Shown here one piece after another: positions 2,331 through 51,215 of a stretch of 64,000 nt of DNA. The notes below the pieces were generated by a model. That model did not search any database. It worked only from the letters and a program-made list of their open reading frames with translations, and was not told the origin of the DNA. The DNA lies in the NCBI RefSeq assembly GCF_000282035.1, contig NZ_AKKA01000072.1, forward strand, positions 124,001-188,000, written 5' to 3'. Numbering within the stretch: the stretch's first letter is position 1; each line of letters starts with the position of its first letter. The position numbers and the translations under genes are program-made. Origin of the DNA: Rhizobium sp. CF122 (GTDB lineage: Bacteria; Pseudomonadota; Alphaproteobacteria; Rhizobiales; Rhizobiaceae).

Positions 2331-3407
2331 TCAATGACCTCGTCGAACCTGGACTTTGTCCAGGTGGATCGTCTCGCCTGACCGCGCCGATGCCTTGATC
2401 GCCTCGATCACGCGCAGGGTCGCAAGACCTTCCTTGCCGCTGACAAGTGGCTCTGCTTCACGACGAATGACATCGCAGAAGTGTTGAAGCTGTAGCGCCA
2501 GTGGATCGGCCGGAGTGAAGGGCACGTGTTCCGTGACAAGCGGTTCAAGCCAATCTGGCTTCGACGCATTGGTCCAAAGCGCGAGTTGGGGAATGGCCAG
2601 CGATCCGCCCGTCCCCCCGATCTGGTAGCAAAATTGATCCTGGTGCGGAAACGCCGGGTTCTCCCCAGTCGTCATCTCCCAGCTCCAGGGAGAGGCGACG
2701 GCATCGGATGCATTCAACGTTGCGAGCACACCGCTCGCGAAACGGAGCAGGATGATGACGGTGTCCTCGACAAGGTGCTGGCGGGCCGAATTTGACTCCA
2801 TTGCATGGACGGCTTCGACCTCGCCGAAGAAATAGCGGAAGAGATCAACGTCATGGATCAGGTTGATGAAGGTCGGCCCCGCACCTTCCTGTCGGCGCCA
2901 ACCGATATTGAAGTAGCTTTCCGGCTTGGCGACCCAGAATGTCGCCTGGACAGTCAGGATCTTACCGAGCCGACCGCTGTCGAGAACGCGTTTTGCCGCC
3001 CGTATCATGGGATTATGACGGCGATGGTGACCAACCAGGATGGGGATGCCTGCCCTTGCGCCGGCGGCAACGAGGAGGGCCGCTGCTTGCGCATTATCGG
3101 CGATCGGCTTCTCGACAAGGACGGGAATTTCCGTTGCAATGGCCTCCAGGGCGTTGTCGACATGAAGTTGGTTCGGGGTGGCAACAATTACGCCGTCCGG
3201 GCGCTTGGCTGCTGTCGCCTCGGCAAGTGTGGAAAACCATGAAGCGCCCTTGCTTGCCGCAAAGTCACGCCCGGCATCAGAGGGATCGATGACGGCGGAA
3301 AGTATCGTGCGCGGCTCGGCCAGAATGCCTTCGATATGGCGCTGACCGATGAGACCGGCGCCCATCACCGCGATTTTCAAGGGGGCCGACTGCGATGGTG
3401 CTGACAT
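2331..3407 (-). CDS. Gfo/Idh/MocA-family oxidoreductase
   Basis: A 358-residue NAD(P)-dependent dehydrogenase. The ATG at 3407 follows GAGGGAATTTTC, and the longer upstream reading overlaps the ABC ATPase gene and is not protein-like. Residues 11-30 hold the nucleotide-binding motif (VMGAGLIGQRH) and near residue 95 is the family signature VLVEKPIAD, whose Lys is catalytic. The C-terminal half is the usual beta-sheet domain. Relatives oxidise polyols, inositols and sugars. Between transporter and AroE-like genes, it may oxidise a ring hydroxyl of a cyclitol-type acid. The exact substrate cannot be read from sequence. Confidence 0.85.
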   Translation of the reverse strand: MSAPSQSAPLKIAVMGAGLIGQRHIEGILAEPRTILSAVIDPSDAGRDFAASKGASWFSTLAEATAAKRPDGVIVATPNQLHVDNALEAIATEIPVLVEKPIADNAQAAALLVAAGARAGIPILVGHHRRHNPMIRAAKRVLDSGRLGKILTVQATFWVAKPESYFNIGWRRQEGAGPTFINLIHDVDLFRYFFGEVEAVHAMESNSARQHLVEDTVIILLRFASGVLATLNASDAVASPWSWEMTTGENPAFPHQDQFCYQIGGTGGSLAIPQLALWTNASKPDWLEPLVTEHVPFTPADPLALQLQHFCDVIRREAEPLVSGKEGLATLRVIEAIKASARSGETIHLDKVQVRRGH

Positions 3408-3426
3408 GAAAATTCCCTCAAAGGTC

Positions 3427-4191
3427 CTAGTTGCGCAGGATTTCGCCGAGGAATTTGCGTGTGCGCTCATGGCTGGGATTGGTGAAGAACTCCGCAGGAG
3501 GCGCCTCCTCGACGATCGCGCCGCTCGCCATGAAGATGACGCGGTTTGCGACCTGTCGGGCGAAGCCCATTTCATGCGTCACGCAGACCATCGTCATGCC
3601 TTCGTCGGCAAGGCTGATCATGGTATCGAGCACTTCCTTGACCATCTCGGGATCCAGAGCTGAGGTCGGCTCATCGAAGAGCATGACCTTCGGGCGCATG
3701 CAGAGCGCCCGCGCAATTGCGACGCGCTGCTGTTGGCCACCTGAAAGCTGCACAGGATATTTGCCTGCCTGTTCGAGGATCTTGACCCGGCCTAGCAGAG
3801 AACGTGCGCGGTCCTCTGCCTCCGCCCTTCCAACGCCAAGCGCGCGCATCGGCGCTAGCATGCAGTTCTGCAACACGGTCAGATGGGGAAAGAGATTGAA
3901 CTGCTGGAAGACCATGCCGACTTCGCGGCGGATCGCGTCGACTGCCTTCGCTTGGTTTCCGAGCAGGATGCCGCCGACGCGGATTTCCCCCTTCTGATAG
4001 GTCTCCAGATGATTGATGCAGCGGATCAGCGTCGATTTTCCGCTGCCGGACGGACCGCACAGCACAATCCTCTCGCCCTTGCGAACCGACAGGTTGACAT
4101 CGTGTAAGGCCTGAAAGGCGCCATACCACTTCTCCACGTGGTTCATGGTGATAATGGTTTCGGTGGTCGATGCGGGCAAAGGACTGTTCAT
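3427..4191 (-). CDS. Polar-amino-acid-type ABC transporter ATPase
   Basis: A 254-residue ATPase of the GlnQ/HisP class. Walker [10 protein letters not shown], signature [15 protein letters not shown], Walker [15 protein letters not shown] and the switch His in VTHEMGF are all present. I prefer the ATG at 4191 (MNSPLP) because the family domain begins soon after. A GTG at 4233 overlapping the permease stop (GTGA) would add 14 residues and is possible by translational coupling. It works with the two downstream-numbered permeases and the binding protein encoded at 6104-6934. The context suggests a shikimate/quinate-like solute instead of an amino acid. Confidence 0.92.
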
Positions 4192-4229
4192 GAGTTTAAT
4201 TCCGTCTCTTTCGTGGCAGGCGCCGGAGA

Positions 4230-4868
4230 TCACCGCGACGCGACGAACTTCCGTTCAAGACGGGCGCCGAAAATCGTCAACGGGCAGCACATCAGGAAAT
4301 ACAGCGCGCCCACGATCCCGAAGACCGTCAGCGGCTCGAAGATCTGGTTGGAAATGATGTTGCCGGCGCGGGTGAGTTCCGTGAAACCGACGATGGAGGC
4401 GAGCGAGGTTCCCTTGATCAACTGCACGAGGAAGCCGATCGTTGCCGGCAGTGAGATGCGCAGAGCCTGTGGCAGGATGACGTCCTTCATGCGCGAGACA
4501 TATTTGAGGCTGAGCGCTCTTGCGGCCTCGGTCTGGCCGTGCGGAACCGCTTCGATCGAGCCACGCCAGATTTCGCCGAGATAGGCGCTGGCATGCAGCG
4601 TCAGGCCGATGGCAACAGCCACCCAGGCATCGAGCTTGAAACCGATCAGGGCAAGTCCGTAATAGACCACGAAGAGCTGCATCAGCAGTGGTGTTCCCTG
4701 AAAGACCGCGATGTAGCCAGCCATCACTCGCTCCAGCAGCGGAATTTCCGAAGTGCGCGCGAGCGCCACACCGAGCCCGGCAATGCATCCGCAGACGAAG
4801 CCAACCGCGGACAAGACGACGGTCCATTTCAGACCGATCAGAAGGAAGACGAATTCTTCGCTGCCCAT
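4230..4868 (-). CDS. ABC transporter permease, polar-amino-acid type (second subunit)
   Basis: A 212-residue inner-membrane permease of the HisMQ/GlnP type with about five hydrophobic segments. The N-terminal membrane part is followed by [14 protein letters not shown], a family hallmark, and the EAA loop reads [24 protein letters not shown] in part (about residues 105-130). It starts nine bases after the stop of the first permease, and its stop overlaps a possible GTG start of the ATPase gene. It forms the channel with the 4878-5549 product. Confidence 0.9.
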
Positions 4869-4877
4869 CGATTGCTC

Positions 4878-5549
4878 CTACTTGACCGGATAGGCGAAAT
4901 AACGTGCCGAAAAGAACGCGAAGAGGCGCATCATCAGCCAAGAAATGACGAGGTAGAAAACCGTCACAGTGAAATAGACCTCGAAGCTGCGGAAACTCTC
5001 CGACTCGATGCGCTGCGAAACCGAGGTGAGCTCATAGGCCGAGATGGCCGAGGCAATGCTGGTCGATAGCGTCAGCAGCACGAACTGGCTGGTCAGCGAC
5101 GGATAGATCGCCCTCAGCGCCGGCTTGAGGATGATGAGGCGGAAAACCTGCGCCTTGTGCAGGCCGAGCGCGAGGCCGGCTTCCATCTGACCCTTCGAGA
5201 TCGACTGGACGCCGCCACGGATAATCTCGATGGCGTAGGCGCCGCCGTTGATCCCAAGAGCGATGATCGCCGTTGGCGTCGGATCCAGCCGGATGCCGGC
5301 AAGGGGGAGGGCGAAATACAGGAAGAAGATCTGAACCAGGAACGGCGTGTTGCGAATGAGCTCGACGAAGCCGATCACCAGCCAGCGCAGCGATTTGTAG
5401 CGCGAATCGCGCAATGCGACGCCGCCGATGCCAATCACGATTGCCAGCAGCATGCCGCAAATGGCAAGCAGCAACGTGCCGAGACAGCCGAGGAGCAGGC
5501 TCGGCAGGCCATCGATGACCGGCGTGAAATCCAACGTGTAGTTCATCAC
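4878..5549 (-). CDS. ABC transporter permease, polar-amino-acid type (first subunit)
   Basis: A 223-residue permease with the family segments VELIRNTPFLVQIFFLYF (about 67-85) and an EAA loop beginning GQMEAGLALGLHKAQVF. It pairs with the 4230-4868 product. The ATG lies six bases after the dehydroquinase stop, with GAGAGGTG upstream, so the two are co-translated. Its position between a dehydroquinase gene and the rest of the importer is the strongest hint to substrate class. Confidence 0.9.
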   Translation of the reverse strand: MMNYTLDFTPVIDGLPSLLLGCLGTLLLAICGMLLAIVIGIGGVALRDSRYKSLRWLVIGFVELIRNTPFLVQIFFLYFALPLAGIRLDPTPTAIIALGINGGAYAIEIIRGGVQSISKGQMEAGLALGLHKAQVFRLIILKPALRAIYPSLTSQFVLLTLSTSIASAISAYELTSVSQRIESESFRSFEVYFTVTVFYLVISWLMMRLFAFFSARYFAYPVK

Positions 5550-36693: not shown

Positions 36694-37854
36694 CTATAAC
36701 AGGCCCCGCTTTGCAAGATTTGCCATCAGCGCGGTGATACCGAAAGTCCAGGGAGAGCACTCGGTCGAGAGCCGCACGGTATTGACGAGCGAGCCGAGGC
36801 CCGCCGACGAAATTTCGACGACATCGCCCACCTTGTGGGTAAACCCCTGGTTTGGTGCGTCACGATCCTGTGTCGGGGCAAACAGCGTCCCCAAGAACAG
36901 CATGAAGCCATCGGGGTACTGATGGTGAGGCCCGCAGGTCTGCTTGACGAGGTCGCACGGATCTCGGCTGATCTTCGACATCGAACTCTTTCCGTGAAGG
37001 ATGAATCCATCTGTCCCAGTAACCTTGAGATCGAGTTCCGCCCTGCGGACCTCATCGAGGCTATAGCTCTCATCAAAGAGGCGAATGAATGGACCGATCG
37101 AGCACGACGCATTGTTGTCCTTTGCCTTGCCGAGGAGCAGCGCCGAACGGCCTTCGACGTCACGCAGATTGACGTCGTTGCCAAGCGTTGCACCCTTGAT
37201 CTCGCCGCGGCTGTTGACGGCAAGCACGATCTCGGGCTCCGGGTTGTTCCAGCTCGAGATCGGATGCAGGCCGACATCGGCGCCCCAGCCGACAGACGAG
37301 AGCACCGGTGACTTCGTGAACACCTCGGCGTCCGGTCCGATGCCAACCTCGAGATATTGAGACCACATGCCTTCCTCGATCAGCGCCTGCTTGACCTTCA
37401 AGGCTTCCGGCGAGCCTGCCTTCAGGTTGTTGAGGCTACCGCCGATCAGCGTACTGACGCGCTCGCGGATCGCGGCGGCGCGATCTGGATTTCCGGCCGC
37501 CTTCTCTTCGATCACGCGTTCGATCATCGACTGAGCGAATGTCACCCCACAGGCCTTGATCGCCTGGAGGTCGGCCGGAGCAAGCAGATGGACGCGAGAC
37601 GGGTCAGGCGTTCCGATACCAACGGCGTCGACTTCCTTGAGCGCGCCGAGCACAGGACCGCGCGCAGCGCGCACGAAGGCAGCCGGGTCGACCTGCTCCA
37701 GCAGTGCGCTCAACGTCGGCACGGTCTTGGAGGTGATGTCGACCAGATGGCCATCCCGAACCACCACGACGCATGGACCTCGGACAGCAGGGTTCCAGGC
37801 ACGACCGATAAACAAGCCGCCAGCGGCGACAGCGTCCAGAAGAGTGTAAGACAT
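36694..37854 (-). CDS. xylX: FAH-family sugar-acid dehydratase (XylX-like)
   Basis: A 386-residue protein of the fumarylacetoacetate hydrolase fold. It follows the Caulobacter XylX pattern nearly throughout: SQYLEVGIGPDAEVFTK, SSWNNPEPEIVLAV, LGNDVNLRDVEGRSALLLGK, AKDNNASCSIGPF and the end KPWTFGI-like SPWTFGITALMANLAKRGLL. XylX dehydrates 2-keto-3-deoxy-D-xylonate to alpha-ketoglutarate semialdehyde in the Weimberg pathway. The L-arabinose branch uses a similar step, so the sugar is uncertain. It lies downstream of the xylD-like gene on the same strand, but a terminator separates them. Confidence 0.85.
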   Translation of the reverse strand: MSYTLLDAVAAGGLFIGRAWNPAVRGPCVVVVRDGHLVDITSKTVPTLSALLEQVDPAAFVRAARGPVLGALKEVDAVGIGTPDPSRVHLLAPADLQAIKACGVTFAQSMIERVIEEKAAGNPDRAAAIRERVSTLIGGSLNNLKAGSPEALKVKQALIEEGMWSQYLEVGIGPDAEVFTKSPVLSSVGWGADVGLHPISSWNNPEPEIVLAVNSRGEIKGATLGNDVNLRDVEGRSALLLGKAKDNNASCSIGPFIRLFDESYSLDEVRRAELDLKVTGTDGFILHGKSSMSKISRDPCDLVKQTCGPHHQYPDGFMLFLGTLFAPTQDRDAPNQGFTHKVGDVVEISSAGLGSLVNTVRLSTECSPWTFGITALMANLAKRGLL

Positions 37855-38000
37855 CGATGTGTTCCGTCACGCGAGCGATGGAGGCGCTCAAAATCAAAAC
37901 GAACCAGCCGCCCTCCAACCCGACGGCGCGGGGAAATCGACCACAATAGATGCCCGTCGGCAAGGTCAAAACCAATCAATCTCGACCTCGTTTCGAAAAT

Positions 38001-38036
38001 GAAAAAGGGCGCGGTGCCGGAGTTGGCAACGCGCCC
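38001..38036 (-). terminator. Rho-independent terminator after the xylD-like gene
   Basis: On the minus strand GGGCGCG (38036-38030) pairs with CGCGCCC (38013-38007), with a second inner stem (TGCC/GGCA), and TTTTTC follows directly. This is a complete intrinsic terminator 55 bases after the dehydratase stop. The xylX-like gene therefore needs its own promoter or read-through. Confidence 0.8.
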
Positions 38037-38090
38037 ATTGTGCATGATCAGCCGTGGCTCACGTAACGTGCACTACTGCACGCCGGCGGC

Positions 38091-39965
38091 TTAGTGGTTG
38101 TCGCGCGGGATACCCTTGGTCTGTGCGATGCGCTGGTACTTGACGGCGGGCTCGAGCACGGCGCCGGTTTCCATCTGACCGACATAGGTACGCTGGATTT
38201 CCTGCCAGGGCGTCTGGCTCTCCGGATAGACATAACCACCGGCTGCCTCGAGCGCCTTGCGCCGTTCGGCAAGCTCCTCGTTGCTGATGAGGATGTCGGC
38301 CGTCCCCTTCTTGAGGTCGATGCGAACCTGGTCGCCGGTCTTCAGCAGCGCGAGCCCACCGCCAGCTGCCGCTTCCGGCGAAGCGTTGAGGATGGAGGGG
38401 GAGCCAGAGGTGCCGGACTGACGACCGTCACCGATGCAGGGCAGCGCGGTGATGCCCTGCTTCAAGAGGTAGTCGGGGGCGCGCATGTTGACGACCTCGG
38501 CTGCACCCGGATAGCCGATCGGGCCGGCTCCGCGCATGAAGAGGATCGTCGAGGCGTCAATCGCCAGCGACGGGTCGTCGATGCGGTGATGGTAATCTTC
38601 CGGTCCGTCGAAGACGACCGCGCGGCCAACGAAGGCTTCTGGATCGTTCGGGTTGGAGAGGTAACGCTGACGGAATTCAGGCGAGATCACGCTCGTCTTC
38701 ATGATTGCGGACGAGAAGAGATTGCCGCGCAGGACGCGGAAGCCGGCACGCTCCTTCAGCGGTCGCTCGAACGGGCGAATGACCTTGTCGTCTTCGATCG
38801 TCGCCGTTGTGTAGTTCTCGCCGACAGTCTTGCCGTTGACGGTCATCGCACTTGTATTGAGGAGATCATGCTTGATCAGTTCGCCCATCACGGCAGGAAC
38901 GCCACCGGCATGGTAGTAGTCCTCGCCGAGATATTCGCCGGCCGGCTGCAAGTTGACGAGGAGCGGAATTTCCTCGCCGTAGGTCTGCCAGTCGTCGACC
39001 GTCAGTTCAACGCCGACATGGCGTGCCAGAGCGTTCAGGTGGATCGGCGCGTTGGTGGAACCACCGATTGCGGAGTTGACCTTGATCGCGTTGATGAAGG
39101 CTTCCTTGGTCAGGATGTCGGACGGCTTCAGGTCTTCGCGCACCATCTCGACGATGCGAAGGCCGGTTTCATAGGAAACTTCCTGACGGTCGCGGTAGGG
39201 GGCCGGAATTGCCGCGCCACCCGGCAGTTGCATGCCCAGCGCTTCGGCAAGCGAGTTCATTGTCGTCGCCGTGCCCATCGTGTTGCAGTAGCCGGTCGAG
39301 GGTGCGGAGGATGCGACGAGCTTGACGAAGCCCTGATAGTCGATTTCGCCGCGCGCCATCATTTCGCGGGCCTTCCAGACAATTGTGCCGGAGCCCGTAC
39401 GCTCGCCGCGGAACCAGCCGTTCAGCATAGGACCGACCGAGAGCGCGATCGCCGGAATGTTGACGGTGGCCGCGGCCATGAGACAGGCCGGCGTCGTCTT
39501 GTCGCAACCGATCGTCAGGACTACGCCGTCGAGCGGATAGCCGTAGAGAACCTCGACAAGGCCGAGATAGGAGAGGTTGCGGTCGAGACCGGCGGTCGGG
39601 CGCTTGCCGGTTTCCTGGATCGGATGCACCGGGAATTCAATGGCGATACCGCCAGCGTCACGAATGCCTTCGCGAACGCGCTTGGCAAGCTCGATATGGT
39701 GACGATTGCACGGCGACAGGTCCGAGCCAGTCTGTGCGATACCGATGATCGGCCTTCCCGACTGCAGCTCTTCCTGGCTCAGACCGAAGTTCATGTAACG
39801 CTCCAGGTAGAGCGCGGTCATGTCGGGGTTTGCCAGATTGTCGAACCAGGCCTTGGAGCGAAGCTGGCGCGATCCGTCCTGCTCTTGAACTGCGTTCTGA
39901 TTCGGGGAGGGATTTTTCTCAACCACGATGAATTTCCTTGCTTTGAAGCCGCTGTTGTCATGCAC
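38091..39965 (-). CDS. xylD: IlvD/Edd-family sugar-acid dehydratase (D-xylonate/L-arabinonate type)
   Basis: A 624-residue iron-sulfur dehydratase. Cys86 (SPCNRHH), Cys154 ([10 protein letters not shown]) and Cys227 (GYCNTMGTA) are the usual cluster ligands; GGSTNAPIH carries the catalytic Ser. [20 protein letters not shown] and the C-terminal PRDNH match Caulobacter XylD (end PRHNH). The first 30 residues are an unconserved extension, so an internal start near residue 15 (GTG codons) is possible. It removes water from a C5 aldonate to give the 2-keto-3-deoxy acid used by the XylX-like enzyme. Confidence 0.88.
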
Positions 39966-40043
39966 TTAGCTGATCGATACAGGAATGTATAATCAGTCTT
40001 TCGCATTTTGATATGCAAATATCTTATATCGAGTGAGGCAATC

Positions 40044-40952
40044 GTGGGATTAGATGGTTTCAGACTGCGGCACCTGAAGATGCTCGTGGCGCTCAGCGAG
40101 CACGGCAAGCTCGGCGTCGTTGCCGAAATGTTTGGCATCTCGCAACCGGCCCTGTCGAGAACCCTCAATGAGCTGGAGCAAATGTCTGGGCACCAGCTCT
40201 TCGAACGACACAATCGTGGCCTCGTCCCCACCCCTCAGGGCGAAGTGATCGTTCGCCACGCCAAAATGCTGATCTCCGAAGCACAACGCGCAGAATATGA
40301 AATGGTTGTCGCAGCTGCCGGGCAGGGCGGCAGCGTGGCATTCGGCACGATCATGACGCCGGCAGCCGATTACGTTGCCCCTGCGCTGAAACGGATCTTC
40401 GAAACCCACCCGACGATCGACATCAGCATCTCCGTTGGCAGCAGCGACGTGCTTCTCGAGGATGTGCTGAACAGAAGGCTCGACTTTGCCGTCTGCCGCA
40501 TTCCAAGTGGCATGAACCCACTCTGGTTCGACTATCTGCCGGTCGGCCAGGAGACGCTGCGTGTCATCGTGGCCGTGGATCACCCGCTCTCGGCCAAGCC
40601 TGTCGTCACCGAGGACGATCTCAGGCACCTGAGCTGGGTGCTCCAGCCGCATGGCTCGTTCCTTCGACAGGTCATCGATGATTTCATCCGTCGTCACGGC
40701 ATCGTGCCAGCAAGCGTCGTTTCGACTTCCGATGCGCTTTTGACCATGTTGCTGATATTGCAGAGCCAGCGGCTCGGCATCTTTGCCGAGCCCGTGGCAG
40801 CCCTGCTCGAGCGGCATGGTCTCGTTAAGGCGCTGCAGATAGAGGGCGATATCTCCGTCCCAGGTTTTGGCCTCGTCAAACTCAAGGAACGCGAACTGTC
40901 TGCCTCCGCCGAGCTTGTCTACAATGTGTTTGCCACAACGCGAAACCCTTAA
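40044..40952 (+). CDS. LysR-family regulator (GbpR-like)
   Basis: A 302-residue regulator divergent from the xylD-like gene. I start at the GTG at 40044 behind GTGAGG; an ATG at 40008 would add 12 residues. The HTH (about 5-62) reads LRHLKMLVALSEHGKLGVVA, FGISQPALSRTLNELEQ, and the periplasmic-binding-like effector domain fills the rest. It resembles GbpR-class LysR proteins, which control sugar-uptake genes in Agrobacterium. It probably controls the xylD-like gene from the 78-base shared gap. Confidence 0.9.
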   Translation: MGLDGFRLRHLKMLVALSEHGKLGVVAEMFGISQPALSRTLNELEQMSGHQLFERHNRGLVPTPQGEVIVRHAKMLISEAQRAEYEMVVAAAGQGGSVAFGTIMTPAADYVAPALKRIFETHPTIDISISVGSSDVLLEDVLNRRLDFAVCRIPSGMNPLWFDYLPVGQETLRVIVAVDHPLSAKPVVTEDDLRHLSWVLQPHGSFLRQVIDDFIRRHGIVPASVVSTSDALLTMLLILQSQRLGIFAEPVAALLERHGLVKALQIEGDISVPGFGLVKLKERELSASAELVYNVFATTRNP

Positions 40953-40973: not shown

Positions 40974-41882
40974 CTAAGGCGCATACTGCGTGACCATGCG
41001 CGCATCGCGGCGGAAATCGGAAGGTGACATGCCCGCAATATGGCGAAACGACTTGTTGAAGGCGCTGATCGAGCCGAATCCGCTGTCCATTGCGACCTGC
41101 AACACGTTTGCCTCGTCGTTCATCAACATCGCTTGCGCGCGCGACAGGCGCAGCAGATTGACATATTTGCTGAGCGTCATGCCGGTCGTCTTCTTGAACA
41201 GGTTCATCGCATATTTCGGGTGAAGGTCGGCCGCACGAGCGATATCGACCGAATCAATTTCCTGTAGGAAGTTGACGGCGATGAAGTCGCACATGCGCGC
41301 CACACTGCGCGAGGATTGCGGATAGCACTGCTCGATATCGTCAGCATCGGTCGGCCCGAGTGTCGGAATCATGGAATAGGGCTCCAGTGCGATTCGCTCC
41401 ACCCGCAACATCATCTCGTCGACGGCGTGCTGCGCCTTGGCAGGGTCGCCTGACTTGGCGTAGCGCACCCAGCGTGGAAAGTTTTCCCGGTCGGCGGCGT
41501 CGGTTGCCGAGGTGAACAGGATCTCGCCCTTCATCAGGCGGCTGGAAATGTTGATCGGCAGGCGCATGCGGAAGAAGTAGACGAGCGGAAGATGCCCGCC
41601 GGCATAGATCGCGTCCTCGGAGCAATCGTCCATCTGGTGCGGCTGCCCGCCCCAGAACAGGCACATGTCGCCCGCCCGCATGGTGATTTCGCAACCATTC
41701 ACGCGATAGTGGACGCTCCCCTGCATGATGTAGTTCACTTCAACCTGTACATGCCAATGCGGCATCAACATGACTGGCGGGTGGTTGTGAAACATCTGAA
41801 GGGCCGTCGGCAACCCTTCGATACTGCTTGCTCCCGGCTGATAGACAGCCCGCCTTACGATCTTACTTTCCGCCAAATCCAT
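40974..41882 (-). CDS. AraC-family regulator with cupin sensor domain
   Basis: A 302-residue regulator. The N-terminal cupin (about 30-110: PHWHVQVEVNYIMQGSVHYR, GDMCLFWGGQPHQ) is followed by the double HTH (about 195-295: LHPKYAMNLFKKTTGMTLSK, DSGFGSISAFNKSFRHIAGM). The layout is MelR/AgpT-like. It is divergent from the CUT1 sugar importer, with an 86-base gap that must hold both promoters, so it is the likely activator of that operon. Confidence 0.9.
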   Translation of the reverse strand: MDLAESKIVRRAVYQPGASSIEGLPTALQMFHNHPPVMLMPHWHVQVEVNYIMQGSVHYRVNGCEITMRAGDMCLFWGGQPHQMDDCSEDAIYAGGHLPLVYFFRMRLPINISSRLMKGEILFTSATDAADRENFPRWVRYAKSGDPAKAQHAVDEMMLRVERIALEPYSMIPTLGPTDADDIEQCYPQSSRSVARMCDFIAVNFLQEIDSVDIARAADLHPKYAMNLFKKTTGMTLSKYVNLLRLSRAQAMLMNDEANVLQVAMDSGFGSISAFNKSFRHIAGMSPSDFRRDARMVTQYAP

Positions 41883-43322: not shown

Positions 43323-44183
43323 ATGCCGATCCGCAACCGAAACGCTTACGCCTTTCTTGCGCCCTACCTCTTGATCTTTGCCACCTTCTGGATCTGGCCG
43401 ATCATCAGTTCGTTTCTGACCTCGTTTCAGAATACCCGCGTCAATCCATGGAAATTCAGTCTTTCCATTAACTGGGGTCGTCTCATCGGCGATCCGGCCT
43501 TTTATAACGCGCTCTACAACACGCTGATCATCCTGGTCATCCAGGTCCCGGTCATGATCATGCTCGCCACCGTAATGGCGGTGCTGTTGAACTCGCCGCT
43601 TTTAAAGGCGCGGCCGCTGTTCCGCTTCGCCTTTTTCGCGCCCGTCGTCGTTGGCGAGGTGGCCTATTCTGCGGTCTTCCGCCTGATGTTCAGTTTCGAT
43701 TTCGGGATCGTCAACAAGATCATCACCTTGGTCGGTCTTCCAGCCGTTTCCTGGTTCGACAATGCCAACGCTGCCATGACCCTGATCATCATTGCGGTGA
43801 CCTGGCGCTGGGCGGGATATAACGCGATCATCATTCTCGCCGGCCTGCAATCCATTCCTGACGACGTCTACGAGGCGGCAACGCTCGATCGCGTCAGCAA
43901 GACACAGCAGTTCTTCCACATCACGCTGCCGCTCTTGAAGCCGATCATCCTGTTTTGCGTCATCCTGTCGGTCATCGGCACCATGCAGCTCTTTACCGAA
44001 CCATTCCTCATCACCAATCGCGGCGGTCCGGGAGGTGGAACGGAAACGCTTGGCCTTCTCCTTTATCGCGAGGGCTTCCGCTCGCTCAATTTCGGCTATG
44101 CCTCGGCTGTCGCCTACACGATGGCGGCGCTGGCGGTCGCGATCTCACTCTTCAACCTCTGGATCGGAAGGGAGCCCAAATGA
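43323..44183 (+). CDS. Sugar ABC transporter permease (CUT1, MalF-like)
   Basis: A 286-residue permease with six hydrophobic segments. ATG at 43323 follows GTGAGGAGAATACA; the earlier in-frame ATG at 43293 lacks a ribosome site. EAA loop: DDVYEAATLDRVSKTQQFFH, ITLPLLKP. The stop overlaps the next start (ATGA). Confidence 0.93.
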   Translation: MPIRNRNAYAFLAPYLLIFATFWIWPIISSFLTSFQNTRVNPWKFSLSINWGRLIGDPAFYNALYNTLIILVIQVPVMIMLATVMAVLLNSPLLKARPLFRFAFFAPVVVGEVAYSAVFRLMFSFDFGIVNKIITLVGLPAVSWFDNANAAMTLIIIAVTWRWAGYNAIIILAGLQSIPDDVYEAATLDRVSKTQQFFHITLPLLKPIILFCVILSVIGTMQLFTEPFLITNRGGPGGGTETLGLLLYREGFRSLNFGYASAVAYTMAALAVAISLFNLWIGREPK

Positions 44184-45016
44184 GATCGAAGTCTCAATCG
44201 CTGCTGCTCCGGCAGATCGCCCTCCACGCCGTCCTGACGCCGCTGGCCATAATCTGGCTGTTTCCGCTCTGGATGATGTTCGTCTTCTCGACGATGTCGG
44301 ACTTCGGCATATTCAGCCCCGAGATCGTGCTCTGGCCGTCGACCAACTTCGTCGAGAATTTCAAGAACCTGCAGGCCGATACCGACTTCATACGCGCCAT
44401 GTTCATCTCCATCGGCGTTGCGGTGATCTACACGTTCCTGTCGGTGCTTCTGACCTCGATGGCCGGCTGGGCGCTGGCCCGCTATCGCTTCGTCGGGCGG
44501 TCGATCGTCATTGGCATCATTCTCGGGACGATCACGCTGCCCTTTGCCGTCGTTGTCATTCCGCAGTTCATCATGGTGGCCCGCGAATTCAGGCTGGCTA
44601 ATACCTGGATTGCGCTGATTGTCCCACCGCTCTTCAACTCGCTCGGAGTGCTGTTCATGCGTCAGGCCTTCTCGATGATGCCTGGGGAACTCTTCGATGC
44701 CGCGCGTGTCGAAGGCGTCAAGGAATGGCAGATCTTCCTTCGGATCGCACTGCCCCTCGCAAGGCCGACGATGGCGGCGCTTGCCATCATCCTCTTCCTG
44801 CACTCCTGGAACAATTACCTCTGGCCGCTGCTCATCAACTCCAAGCCGGGGATGATGACGGCACCGGTGGCGCTTGGCACGCTGATTGGTCTGACCAAGG
44901 TATCGTGGGGAGGGATCATGGCGGGAGCAATAATGCTGACGGCGCCGATCCTTGTCGTCTTCGTGCTCCTGCAGCGCCACTTCATCGCCGGCATCGCGGC
45001 CGGCGCAGTCAAATAA
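44180..45016 (+). CDS. Sugar ABC transporter permease (CUT1, MalG-like)
   Basis: A 278-residue permease beginning MRSKSQSLLLRQIALHAVLT. EAA loop: GELFDAARVEGVKEWQIFLR, IALPLARPT; late segment LHSWNNYLWPLLI is a MalG-family hallmark. Translationally coupled to the preceding permease. Confidence 0.93.
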   Translation: MRSKSQSLLLRQIALHAVLTPLAIIWLFPLWMMFVFSTMSDFGIFSPEIVLWPSTNFVENFKNLQADTDFIRAMFISIGVAVIYTFLSVLLTSMAGWALARYRFVGRSIVIGIILGTITLPFAVVVIPQFIMVAREFRLANTWIALIVPPLFNSLGVLFMRQAFSMMPGELFDAARVEGVKEWQIFLRIALPLARPTMAALAIILFLHSWNNYLWPLLINSKPGMMTAPVALGTLIGLTKVSWGGIMAGAIMLTAPILVVFVLLQRHFIAGIAAGAVK

Positions 45017-46161: not shown

Positions 46162-48165
46162 ATGAGCACAGACCAACCGATCCGTTGGGGCATTATCGGC
46201 CCGGGCACGATCGCCCGCACCTTTGCGGACGGCATCGCGCATTCGCGCACAGGAAAACTCGTCGCCATTGCCACCCGCAACCCGCAAAAGCCCGGACTCG
46301 GCGAGAACTTCCCCGGCGCCCGCATCGTCAATGGGTATGATGCGCTGCTGGCGGACGCAGAAATCGACGCGATCTATATCGCAACCCCACATACCGGTCA
46401 TGCCGAATGGGCAATCAAGGCTATCCGCGCCGGCAAGCACGTTCTTGTCGAAAAGCCGATTGCACTTTCCGCGTTCGACGCCGATGCGATCTATCACGAA
46501 GCCAAGAAGGCCGGCGTCTTTGCAGGCGAGGCCTTCATGTATCGCGTTCACCCGCAAACGGCCAAGATCGTCGAACTGATCAAAGGCGGTGTCATCGGCA
46601 GCGTGCGCATCATCCGCTCGAGCTTCGGTTTCAACATGGGCTCGTTCAAGCCCGAGCATCGGCTTTTTGCCAACGAGACGGCCGGCGGCGGTATCCTCGA
46701 TGTCGGAGGCTATCCGGTCTCCATGGCACGGTTGATCGCAGGAACTGTCGAAGGCAAGCCGTTCCTCGAGCCGGAAAGGGTCTCAGGCGTCGGTCACCTC
46801 GGTCAATCGGGGGTGGATGAGTGGGCGTCCGCCGTTTTGAAATTTCAAAACGGCGTCATCGCCGAAGTGTCCTGCTCGATCATGGCGCAGCAAGACAATA
46901 CGCTGCGCATCATCGGTTCGGAAGGGCGCATCGAGGTCAAGGATTTCTGGTTTGCCTCCGGCCACAAGGGCGGCACTGGCAGGATCGAGATCTTCAAGGG
47001 CAACGAGCAGCAGACGATCGAGGTCAAGGAAGACCGCTGGCTCTATTCCTTTGAGGTCGATGCAGCCGGCGATGCGATCCGCGCCGACGAAAAGGAATTC
47101 CGCGCACCCGGCATGAGCTGGGCCGACTCGGTCGGAAACCTGCGTGTTCTTGATCAATGGCGTGCCTCGATTGGTCTGGAATACGGCGTCGAGAAGGCAG
47201 ACAAGCGAACCGCGAACATCGCAGGTGGTGCGGTTCGGCGCGGAAACAGCATCCCGCAGCGCCAGATTCCCGGCATTTCGAAGCCGGCTTCGGTCGTCAC
47301 GCTCGGCTTCGAATTCTTCCCGAACTTTGCTGCGGCGTCTCTGACCCTCGACGCATTCTACGAGGCGGGCGGCAATGTCTTCGACACGGCCTTCGTCTAT
47401 GGTGGGGGCAAGACCGAGAGCATCTTTGGCGACTGGCAAACCAGCCGTAAGGTGCCGCGCGAGGAGATCGTACTGATCGGCAAGGGCGTCCATTCCCCGC
47501 TCTGCTATCCCGATGTCATCGCCAAGCAGCTCGACCAGTCGCTGAACCGTCTGAAGACCGACTATGTCGATATCTACTTCATGCATCGAGACAATACCGA
47601 TATTCCGGTTGGCGAGTTCGTCGATGCCATGGACGCAGAGGTCAAGCGCGGTCGAATTCGTGGCATCTTCGGCGGATCGAACTGGACGCGCGAGCGCGTG
47701 GACGAAGCCGCAGCCTACGCCGCCAAGAATGGCAAGATGGCGCCGGCTGCCCTTTCCAACAACTTCTCGCTTGCCGAGATGCTCGATCCGATCTGGGCTG
47801 GATGCGTGGCGGCTTCCGATGACGACTGGAAGAAATGGCTGAATGCCAAGCAGATCCCGAACTTTGCATGGTCGAGCCAGGGACGCGGCTTCTTTACGGA
47901 GCGCGCCGGACGCGACAAGCGCGACGATGAGGAAATTGTCCGTTGCTGGTATTCGGATCGCAATTTCGAGCGCCGGGACCGGGCAATCGAGCTCGCAAAC
48001 AAGCTCGGACGCAGCCCGATCCACATCGCGCTCGCCTATGTAATCGCCCAGCCGTTCCCGGTCATTCCGCTGATCGGACCGCGCACCATCGCCGAGTTGG
48101 AAGACAGCCTCTCGGCGCTCGACATCAAGCTGACACCGGAACAGGTGAAGTGGCTGGAAGCGTGA
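46162..48165 (+). CDS. Gfo/Idh/MocA dehydrogenase fused to aldo/keto reductase
   Basis: A 667-residue two-enzyme protein. Residues 1-345 are a Gfo/Idh/MocA oxidoreductase (WGIIGPGTIARTFADGI, IYIATPHTGHAEWAIKAI, HVLVEKPIALS). Residues about 365-667 are an aldo/keto reductase with the tetrad Asp and Tyr in VFDTAFVYGGGKTE, Lys in VLIGKGVH and His in YFMHRDN, then GIFGGSNWT and a late PLIGPRTIAELEDS. The reading frame is continuous, with no stop between modules. It is the last gene of the sugar-importer operon. The two domains could run an oxidation and a reduction on one sugar, for example epimerisation through a keto intermediate with cofactor recycling; that is inference. Confidence 0.9.
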   Translation: MSTDQPIRWGIIGPGTIARTFADGIAHSRTGKLVAIATRNPQKPGLGENFPGARIVNGYDALLADAEIDAIYIATPHTGHAEWAIKAIRAGKHVLVEKPIALSAFDADAIYHEAKKAGVFAGEAFMYRVHPQTAKIVELIKGGVIGSVRIIRSSFGFNMGSFKPEHRLFANETAGGGILDVGGYPVSMARLIAGTVEGKPFLEPERVSGVGHLGQSGVDEWASAVLKFQNGVIAEVSCSIMAQQDNTLRIIGSEGRIEVKDFWFASGHKGGTGRIEIFKGNEQQTIEVKEDRWLYSFEVDAAGDAIRADEKEFRAPGMSWADSVGNLRVLDQWRASIGLEYGVEKADKRTANIAGGAVRRGNSIPQRQIPGISKPASVVTLGFEFFPNFAAASLTLDAFYEAGGNVFDTAFVYGGGKTESIFGDWQTSRKVPREEIVLIGKGVHSPLCYPDVIAKQLDQSLNRLKTDYVDIYFMHRDNTDIPVGEFVDAMDAEVKRGRIRGIFGGSNWTRERVDEAAAYAAKNGKMAPAALSNNFSLAEMLDPIWAGCVAASDDDWKKWLNAKQIPNFAWSSQGRGFFTERAGRDKRDDEEIVRCWYSDRNFERRDRAIELANKLGRSPIHIALAYVIAQPFPVIPLIGPRTIAELEDSLSALDIKLTPEQVKWLEA

Positions 48166-48180
48166 CGCGATAGCAACGAT

Positions 48181-48211
48181 CGCCCGGGGCTGGGGGCGCC
48201 AGTCCCGGGCG
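48181..48211 (+). terminator. Hairpin after the fusion gene
   Basis: CGCCCGGG (48181-48188) and CCCGGGCG (48204-48211) form an eight-base perfect stem 16 bases past the fusion-gene stop. No clear T run follows. Likely the end of the sugar operon. Confidence 0.65.
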
Positions 48212-48340
48212 TGTGGCTTCACTTCCCTCCTGCACAAAGGACCACTGGACGCTGGAGCAGGACACCTTCGGGGCGTATAGTTGAGAGCTTTAGGTCGGAC
48301 CAGCGGCCTCACCCTGACTGTCAATAGGGGAGCGAAAACG

Positions 48341-48679
48341 ATGAAACGGCTGGTATTGACCACGGCGTCGATGACGCTCGTGGCCTTCAGTGTTTTGGCT
48401 CAAGAGCCTGTCGTCGGCACCTGGAAGACTCAAGTCGGCACCACTGCGGCCATCGATGAATGCGCGCAGGGCTACTGCATCACGATGAAGACGGGCAACA
48501 ATGCGGGCAAGCGCATCGGCTCGTTCCAGGGCAGTAACGGTAACTTCACCGGAACCATCGTTGAGCCGGAGAGCAAAAAGACTTTCACGGGAGTGCTCAC
48601 ACTCAGTGGCGACACGGTGCACATGCGCGGCTGCACGATGAAGGTGATCTGCGTCTCGCTGATCTGGACGCGGTTGTAA
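48341..48679 (+). CDS. DUF2147-family secreted protein
   Basis: A 112-residue precursor, starting at MKRLVLTTASMTLVAFSVLA (signal peptide, cut near AQ) with GGGAGCG upstream. The mature part is a DUF2147-type beta barrel: VVGTWKTQ, YCITMKTGNNAGKRIGSF, KTFTGVLTLSGDTVHMRGC, and a final LIWTRL. Four Cys may form two disulfides. The family is envelope-located and of unknown role. Confidence 0.82.
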   Translation: MKRLVLTTASMTLVAFSVLAQEPVVGTWKTQVGTTAAIDECAQGYCITMKTGNNAGKRIGSFQGSNGNFTGTIVEPESKKTFTGVLTLSGDTVHMRGCTMKVICVSLIWTRL

Positions 48680-50223: not shown

Positions 50224-51215
50224 CTAGAGGTCGAATTGATAGCTAGCTGGAATAAATCGGTAGCCATCGGTGCTCGTTTCCAGGAAGCCCAGCGACGGGT
50301 GGGCCATGTGGTAGCCGATGAAGGGCACCCGATCCGTCGCGAGCATATCCAAAATCTTCTTGCGGGTGCCAGCGGCTGCGGTCTTGTCCACGTCGAAACG
50401 GACCTCCCAGTTGGGCCGCTGGAAACCGAGTGCGTAGTGCACGACCGTGTCAGCAGAGATCACGAGGCGGCGTCCCTCGGACTCGACAAACAAGATCATC
50501 TGTCCGGGCGAATGACCAGGTGCTGATACTGCCGTGATGCCAGGAGCGATGGTCTGCTGGTCGGAGACGAACCTCGTCTTCGGAGCGACGGGCTTCACGC
50601 ACTCCAACACCTGAAAATGGTTGCCGTCTGCAGCTGTGCCCCTCGTGCATCGGAAACCCAGAAATCATACTCAGTCGCATTAACAGCATATCTGGCTTTG
50701 GCGAATGTTTCTGCACCCGCCTCGCGGAGTCCGCCAATGTGATCCCGGTGAAGGTGGGTCAAGAAGACCATTGTAATCTGATCTGGCGAGTAACCAGCTG
50801 CCTGCAGAGCTCCCAGCATTTTGCCTGCGCCGTTCGACCGGCCGTCTTCACCGAATCCGGTATCGACAAGGATGACCTCCGTTCCGGTATCGATGATGAT
50901 CGGCGCGTAGCTAAGGACGAACTGTTCGGTAGGTAGAAAATTCTGCTGTAAGAGCGTCTTCACTTCTTCGGGCGGGCGATCCGTTCCAAACGTCGCCCAT
51001 GGACGGTTCTGGATCGTGTCGCCGTCGCTGACGATTACAATTTTCATCGCGCCCAACTGAATCTTGCTCACGCGATAGCTCTCGCGCTGGCTAACTGAGT
51101 CCTTGGCCTAAGCATCGGGAGCTACGAGGTTCGAAGAAAGCAGGTAGGGGGATGCGAGACCGATTGTCGCCGCTCCGAGAAGTTTGCGCCGAGTAGTCAA
51201 ATGATTTCCGAGCAT
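50224..51215 (-). pseudogene. Exported MBL-fold metallo-hydrolase, broken by a stop and a frameshift
   Basis: From the ATG at 51215 (behind AAGGAGGAC) the sequence reads a Tat signal (LTTRRKLLGAATIGLASPYL). An in-frame TAG at 51110-51108 then interrupts it. The same frame continues with the MBL fold: VSDGDTIQNRPWATFG, VILVDTGFG and the zinc motif LTHLHRDHIGGL. At a run of four Cs (50639-50642, plus strand) the frame shifts by one; the rest continues as NHFQVLECVKP, APGHSPGQMILFV and ISADTVVHYAL to 50224. Repairing both sites gives one normal-length enzyme. Stop read-through or sequence error is possible for one lesion, less so for both. Confidence 0.82.

Follow-up and report, generated by a model that had tools for sequence, protein, structure and literature searches.

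A Gfo/Idh/MocA dehydrogenase-aldo/keto reductase fusion that closes sugar-import operons in Rhizobiaceae, tentatively a bifunctional sugar oxidoreductase

We analyzed a stretch of 64,000 nucleotides from Rhizobium sp. CF122 (positions 124,001 to 188,000 of contig NZ_AKKA01000072.1, assembly GCF_000282035.1; hereafter, the window), which carries a gene joining a Gfo/Idh/MocA dehydrogenase (Gfo) and an aldo/keto reductase (AKR) in one protein. The fusion is the last gene of a six-gene unit that encodes, in order, an AraC-type regulator, a solute-binding protein (SBP), two permeases, the ATPase of an ATP-binding cassette (ABC) importer, and the fusion itself (Table 1). A reading of the same DNA made from the sequence alone (hereafter, the sequence-only reading) had described it as one uninterrupted frame joining two complete oxidoreductases, each with its catalytic residues, at the end of a sugar-import operon. 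This description is borne out by the analyses below.

The fusion occupies a single open frame of 667 codons with an ATG start. Both halves match Pfam profiles above the cut-off: GFO_IDH_MocA at residues 7-120 (PF01408, 4.4e-22) and GFO_IDH_MocA_C3 at 135-258 (PF22725, 4.5e-20), i.e., the Rossmann NAD(P)-binding domain and the C-terminal domain of the Gfo family, then Aldo_ket_red at 390-666 (PF00248, 1.3e-47). The last match spans positions 19-287 of the 291 of the profile, and the AKR half is therefore nearly full length. Matches to NCBIfam models are all sub-threshold, and the public annotations name the protein "aldo/keto reductase", "Gfo/Idh/MocA family oxidoreductase" or "probable oxidoreductase protein". 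An AlphaFold2 model of the fusion (24 of 81 fusion sequences) has a mean pLDDT of 55.6, with an AKR half too poor to judge the (beta/alpha)8 barrel. The motif GAGGAA precedes the ATG, within the gap of 45 nt that follows the ATPase gene. The next gene on the same strand encodes a DUF2147 protein, whose likely ATG, placed by eye at 48341, lies 175 nt past the stop of the fusion. An antisense frame of 526 codons opposite the fusion (46783-48363, minus strand) was judged to be a spurious by-product of GC-rich coding, because it is the plus strand protein that is conserved.

Table 1. The fusion gene, its parts, and the other genes of the six-gene unit (positions in the window; aa, amino acids).
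Feature	Coordinates	Strand	Basis
Gfo/Idh/MocA dehydrogenase-aldo/keto reductase fusion, 667 aa	46162..48165	+	open frame, Pfam, alignment of 131 distinct fusions
Gfo/Idh/MocA half, residues 1-334 (NADP-type R39, E97-K98-P99, D180, Y184)	46162..47163	+	Pfam, invariance and motif counts
Linker, residues 335-381 (47 residues)	47164..47304	+	alignment; higher dN
Aldo/keto reductase half, residues 382-667 (tetrad D408, Y413, K441, H475)	47305..48162	+	Pfam, invariance
Divergent AraC-family regulator	40974..41882	-	closest NCBIfam model MelR, 163.5 bits against a cut-off of 253; conserved position
Solute-binding protein, 425 aa	41969..43246	+	best solved relatives 6q5g and 6h0h (sugar-binding proteins)
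ABC permease 1, 286 aa	43323..44183	+	NCBIfam; start reset
ABC permease 2, 278 aa, overlapping permease 1 by 4 nt	44180..45016	+	family by homology and position
ABC importer ATPase (MalK/UgpC type), 361 aa	45031..46116	+	NCBIfam on residues from 45124 onward; start reset

We collected 162 fusion open reading frames (ORFs) from loci L001-L110, L120-L128, L135-L139 and L144-L188, which resulted in an alignment of 131 distinct rows including that of the window. Each ORF has at least 250 residues and reaches E 1e-30 or better with both halves; genes truncated at the end of a contig are thus not represented. An assembly, chance or frameshift artefact as the source of the fusion is ruled out by these 131 distinct sequences. 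The Gfo residues E97-K98-P99, D180 and Y184 are invariant in all of them, and correspond to the E-K-P motif and to the catalytic Asp and Tyr/His of the motif D-x-G-x-(H/Y) in this family. The same is true of D408, Y413, K441 and H475 in the AKR half, the Asp-Tyr-Lys-His tetrad of AKR enzymes. In 12 pairwise comparisons, dN/dS ranged from 0.05 to 0.20 for the Gfo half and from 0.02 to 0.19 for the AKR half, values that are rough given that dS is near or above 1 in most of them. Since the catalytic residues are invariant and dN/dS is low, both halves look complete, under selection and active.

An Arg follows the second strand of the Rossmann fold, at position 39, in 131 of the 131 fusions, preceded by Thr, Ser or Ala at position 38. 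Arg at this place marks the NADP(H)-binding type of Gfo enzyme. The AKR half has a G-P-R motif near its C-terminus, with G639-P640 invariant and R641 present in at least 97% of the fusions, which is suggestive, and only suggestive, of NADP(H)-dependent carbonyl reduction. By these motifs both halves look to be of the NADP(H) type. Given the invariant R39 and the NADP-type motif of the AKR half, we set aside the proposal of the sequence-only reading that one cofactor pool could be fed from another by the fusion. The Gfo half also carries D-(V/I)-G-x-Y, which counts as the Tyr-type form of the motif in the Gfo family. The stretch from R334 to G382, which contains the linker, has 46-51 residues in all fusions and 47 in 103 of them. 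Residues 340-372 are more divergent than either domain, the least conserved stretch of the protein lies in the linker, and dN is raised at residues 346-372 in most of the 12 comparisons. The nearly constant length of the linker among fusions whose identity to that of the window goes down to 35% (Gfo) and 45% (AKR) suggests that the spacing of the two halves matters.

The scan of contigs for relatives confirmed 338 loci, of which the best 80, from Rhizobium, Rhizobiales isolates and one Rhizobiaceae metagenome-assembled genome, were kept (85-94% identical). The whole unit from the AraC-type regulator to the fusion is found in 78 of these best 80 of 338 loci, and the remaining two are short contigs where the ATPase is still visible. 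The surroundings vary: for example, an IlvD-type dehydratase gene lies upstream in 19 of the best 80 of 338, some contigs being short. The six genes are kept while the flanking genes vary, and they thus form a discrete unit. In the window itself, the starts of both permeases and of the ATPase were overextended in the list of ORFs and were reset to inner ATGs, and the NCBIfam matches of the SBP and the regulator are sub-threshold and serve as leads only. Beyond the regulator, positions 36694-40952 hold a set of genes that looks like an arabinose/galactose acid pathway, presumably encoding an IlvD-type dehydratase, a GguC-like protein and a LysR regulator. On the other side, two overlapping short frames of 158 and 128 residues (50224-51071, minus strand) look by eye like the two pieces of a single frameshifted gene for a metallo-beta-lactamase-fold protein; the second of them had no Pfam match by itself.

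The taxonomic distribution was surveyed within Pseudomonadota, in overlapping samples of 297 Rhizobiaceae, 385 genomes of the class and 398 of the phylum. The full fusion occurs at 38 places in 37 of the Rhizobiaceae genomes, the one of the window included. In the sample of the class, 9 genomes besides that of the window have it intact, and in the sample of the phylum there are 11: nine are Rhizobiaceae (counting that of the window), one comes from elsewhere in the class, and one from outside it. The fusion is rare outside Rhizobiaceae. A plasmid collection searched at 1e-100 gave 196 matching records, from Rhizobium, Sinorhizobium, Phyllobacterium, Neorhizobium, Pararhizobium and Martelella. 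When the AKR half alone was searched (E 1e-35 or better), 8 of 240 genomes of the class had it: six with intact fusions, one (G523) where the two parts are on different contigs, one of them at a contig end, so that the gene may have been cut by the assembly, and one (G457) where it is a separate gene. All 6 matches among 249 genomes of the phylum belong to fusions already found in the sample of the phylum, and separate relatives of this AKR subfamily were found in G606, G225 and G164. Among the sampled genomes, the fused state is thus the usual one for this subfamily.

The neighbours of the fusion were checked at 36 of the 38 places in Rhizobiaceae (all but G147 and G227), many of which have only 1.5 kb upstream. 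In 34 of them, the fusion is preceded on its own strand by an importer gene. The exceptions are G287, where the AraC regulator is present and no importer gene was found within 7.8 kb, and G057, where the gene of a different binding protein lies downstream of the fusion. In Sinorhizobium medicae, the regulator and the fusion make a pair that no importer adjoins. Outside the family, we checked 9 of the 11 intact loci, one of which has only 818 bases upstream, and none has an importer upstream. In one of the outside genomes (G985), importer genes lie downstream on the same strand, together with another Gfo gene and two xylose-isomerase-like genes (AP_endonuc_2). In a small-genome member of the class (L152, 6233-10623), the fusion is convergent with an adjoining GH3 glycosidase gene, and a P450 and fatty-acid enzymes are encoded close by. 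In R. johnstonii 3841, which has the homologue WP_011649798.1 in an operon on pRL9, a regulator-ParE toxin pair (L111, 12415-13028) is convergent to the fusion, at its 3' end.

The history of the fusion was studied with one tree for each half, built from 33 of the 131 fusions and from single-domain genes (52 rows for Gfo and 42 for AKR); five loci dropped out as duplicates under other ids, and the fusions of G278, G224, G011 and G287 are for this reason absent from both trees. The fusions cluster with the nearest single-half genes, separately from other paralogues (SH-aLRT 92 and 94, not starred). In G457, the two halves are adjacent genes beside importer genes, with a stop/start overlap of 4 nt (L147, 8605-10658), and each tree unites them with the fusions of G959 and G291 (100, starred). 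The AKR-only gene of G606 joins this group. In the Gfo tree, the fusion group takes in the lone Gfo genes of G002 and of a Martelella plasmid; in the AKR tree, the AKR genes of G225 and G164 lie outside the fusion group. Searches for the missing halves gave only distant candidates in G606 (Gfo, at most 37% identity) and G002 (AKR, at most 32%), and no AKR candidate on the Martelella plasmid, where the search covered the plasmid and not the chromosome. In this plasmid, from Martelella mediterranea (L187, 4014-10056), the lone Gfo half ends an importer operon with a zinc alcohol dehydrogenase and an annotated D-lactate dehydrogenase, and one may speculate that these two stand in for the AKR. The simplest reading of the trees would be that the halves fused once, that the fusion was later split once, and that a half was lost in a few cases. 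The sequence-only reading had considered that the halves might be encoded separately in most relatives, which is not the case in our samples, even if one split pair and three single halves exist. The pairing is old but not compulsory. On another contig of the genome of the window (C30; L215, 6114-11372), a stand-alone Gfo gene adjoins a stand-alone AKR gene in divergent orientation, and a second AKR gene is nearby. The Gfo and AKR genes of this locus are distant paralogues of the halves of the fusion.

Several relatives place the fusion in operons with a beta-galactosidase. In five loci (G278, G224, G084, G011 and G103), it ends an SBP-permease-permease-GH2-ATPase operon, where Pfam identifies the GH2 of G224 and G103, and 74-96% similarity that of the other three; the NCBIfam match of the GH2 is sub-threshold. 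A LacI gene was confirmed in three of the five (G224, G011, G103). Gene by gene, this operon is 63-76% identical to the pSymB operon of Sinorhizobium meliloti R28 (lacR-EFG-Z1-K1), with 55% for the regulator. In S. meliloti 1021, the GH2 match at 3089-5302 of pSymB comes just after a lacF site that one study puts at 1266-1449; the same study gives lacFGZ1K as the lactose ABC transporter and beta-galactosidase of this species (PMC3687685). In another study, a lacEFGZ1K1 strain served as host in a screen for Lac+ clones (PMC5342196). The five relatives carry the fusion directly after an operon matching lacEFGZ1K1, whereas in R28 the operon ends after the ATPase and a pyrroline-5-carboxylate reductase gene comes next. 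A second type of operon, ROK-SBP-permease-permease-ATPase-GH42, is ended by the fusion in Rhizobium tumorigenes and in the second copy of G050, with GH42 between the ATPase and the fusion. The ROK-type importer and the fusion also occur without GH42, in S. meliloti and G257, and G088 has an AraC-SBP-permease-permease-fusion array followed by a more distant GH42.

In a tree of 40 fusions, 35 of them labelled Rhizobiaceae, the five lac-linked fusions do not make one clade, and their constraint to monophyly was rejected (AU p 0.0005). The labels had been set beforehand from the operon type, though earlier identities hinted at the outcome. The tree needs three changes, either separate gains or one gain and two losses. 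Because the lac-linked fusions are scattered, the link was gained more than once, or was gained early and lost in between. Among 120 loci searched for similar GH2 or GH42 genes (tblastn, 1e-15; including L163 and L187, which lack an intact fusion), 8 have one, and in each it is an operon partner of the fusion. The operon of the window departs from the lac operon of S. meliloti (LacI, lacEFG, GH2 lacZ1, lacK1) by its AraC regulator and the lack of GH2, and the GH2 gene present elsewhere in the genome is not beside lacEFG-like genes. A galactoside role for the operon of the window would thus be one of association in relatives, since the window and the best 80 of the 338 loci hold no such GH2 or GH42.

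The solved relatives of the Gfo half are led by the sugar 3-ketoreductase 3rbv (E 1.8e-29), which we take to be KijD10, a chain of 350 residues that, unlike the fusion, has no AKR. The native substrate of this sugar 3-ketoreductase is a nucleotide sugar. The other matches are dimeric dihydrodiol dehydrogenase, 1,5-anhydrofructose reductase, aldose-aldose oxidoreductase and glucose-fructose oxidoreductase (GFOR). Like the fusion, GFOR and aldose-aldose oxidoreductase are Gfo family enzymes with a Tyr-type motif, an NADP(H)-type signature and possible redox-neutral sugar chemistry. However, they have one catalytic site and no AKR domain, GFOR being a single-domain enzyme whose tightly bound NADP(H) cycles between two sugars, whereas the fusion adds to the NADP-type R39 and the Tyr motif a second enzyme domain. 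The solved matches of the AKR half include IolS and DepB (8hwn). DepB takes part with DepA in the epimerisation of deoxynivalenol, in which an oxidation is followed by an AKR reduction to the epimer; these are separate proteins, and the oxidation is made by a PQQ enzyme, not by a Gfo. The ycj cluster of E. coli (YcjS, YcjQ, YcjR), which acts on 3-keto-glucosides, has an ABC importer beside two sugar dehydrogenases around a keto sugar (PMC11543891). It thus offers a precedent for this combination, with the differences that its genes are separate and that it includes the isomerase YcjR and phosphorylases. No YcjR-like (xylose-isomerase-like) isomerase is found among the six genes of the window. 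The literature matches listed (titles and starts of abstracts, with most subscription papers outside this scope, and with only part of the searches aimed at the fusion itself) contain no description of this Gfo-AKR fusion, and there is nothing on this operon in the accessible parts of PMC3333776 and PMC6421345. The Gfo and AKR families themselves are textbook knowledge.

We tentatively propose, with a confidence that stays somewhat short of even, that the fusion is a bifunctional NADP(H)-dependent sugar oxidoreductase with a role in breaking down galactose-containing sugars, beta-galactosides being the most likely, that enter through the ABC importer. The Gfo half would oxidise the imported sugar, whole or after cleavage, by moving a hydride to NADP+ from one of its carbons or from a carbon of its galactose moiety, and the AKR half would use NADPH to reduce a carbonyl, most simply that of the keto sugar just made. 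In this way, the pair would change the sugar at no net redox cost. Redox-neutral chemistry with a shared cofactor is probable because both halves look to be of the NADP(H) type; we infer the substrate class and the coupling of oxidation to reduction. Reduction of the same keto sugar would result in an epimer, reduction of another sugar in dismutation, and unrelated steps in mere co-production. The motifs and the neighbours do not choose among these three. In the boldest version, which we regard as unlikely, the fusion would be a single-chain, NADP(H)-recycling epimerase made from two unrelated oxidoreductases, with a keto-galactoside formed by the Gfo half and then reduced by the AKR half to the opposite epimer, as an add-on to operons for the import and hydrolysis of beta-galactosides that was apparently recruited repeatedly. 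Such an epimerase would convert the galacto configuration without UDP-sugars or net redox cost.

A number of observations weigh against our proposal. No GH2 or GH42 similar to those of the relatives was found in the 64 kb of the window or in the best 80 of the 338 loci (tblastn, 1e-15). The genome of the window has a ROK-SBP-permease-permease-ATPase-GH42 operon that does not end in the fusion and is followed by an AraC-type gene, and the lac operon on pSymB of S. meliloti lacks the fusion as well. The regulator and the SBP point to galactosides weakly: the MelR match scores well under its cut-off, the SBP has sub-threshold model matches, and its best solved relatives, 6q5g and 6h0h, are proteins that bind beta-1,6-galactobiose. 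Two loci retain the regulator and the fusion without importer. Outside Rhizobiaceae, apart from the lack of upstream importers, the annotated neighbours include SelO, a nuclease, a P450, fatty-acid enzymes, an amidohydrolase and an isochorismatase-like gene, and most give no hint of sugars; the exceptions are G985 and the GH3 gene of L152. The solved relatives do not single out the carbon that the Gfo half would oxidise. Finally, obligatory covalent coupling is disfavoured because the Martelella plasmid and G002 hold only the Gfo, G606 holds only the AKR, and G457 has separate genes.

This last point is also what makes a looser arrangement conceivable, in which the two halves catalyze sequential, chemically separate steps of one route, with different intermediates and no redox loop, and are joined for co-production in a fixed ratio. 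Fusions can indeed join non-consecutive steps of a pathway, and the single-half relatives together with the split pair imply that the covalent link is not essential. Yet, both halves look to be of the NADP(H) type, the length of the linker is near constant over deep divergence, and the single-half genes lie inside the fusion group, such that they look like late losses (several forks having support below 95); we therefore find this arrangement somewhat unlikely. Dismutation of the GFOR kind, where the Gfo half would oxidise C1 of an aldose (e.g., galactose) with NADP+ and the AKR half would spend the NADPH on turning a second sugar or carbonyl into an alditol or alcohol, fits the Tyr-type motif and the matches to aldose-aldose oxidoreductase, GFOR and dimeric dihydrodiol dehydrogenase. 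It seems quite unlikely, as the top solved match is a sugar 3-ketoreductase, which does not favour C1 over ring-ketone chemistry, and as enzymes of the GFOR type, which run both half-reactions in one site, would need no AKR.

One may also suppose that the link to galactosides is incidental, and that the fusion handles a broadly distributed sugar or a non-sugar carbonyl while it hitch-hikes in operons with importers in Rhizobiaceae. The neighbourhoods outside the family and the two loci where only the AraC regulator accompanies the fusion would fit such a scenario. We consider it improbable, in view of fusions that end operons with two unrelated families of beta-galactosidases, of the scatter of lac-linked fusions on the tree, of the 8 GH2 or GH42 genes in the 120 loci that are all operon partners of the fusion, and of G985, which has importer genes and sugar-type enzymes downstream despite being outside the family.

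Many rhizobial sugar importers have no known cargo. As a conserved marker of galactoside operons in several relatives, the fusion narrows the cargo of one of these importers and provides a reaction that can be tested. Should cofactor-neutral epimerisation be true, it would represent a route for galactose other than the De Ley-Doudoroff and Leloir pathways, and the fusion would be a ready-made self-recycling biocatalyst.

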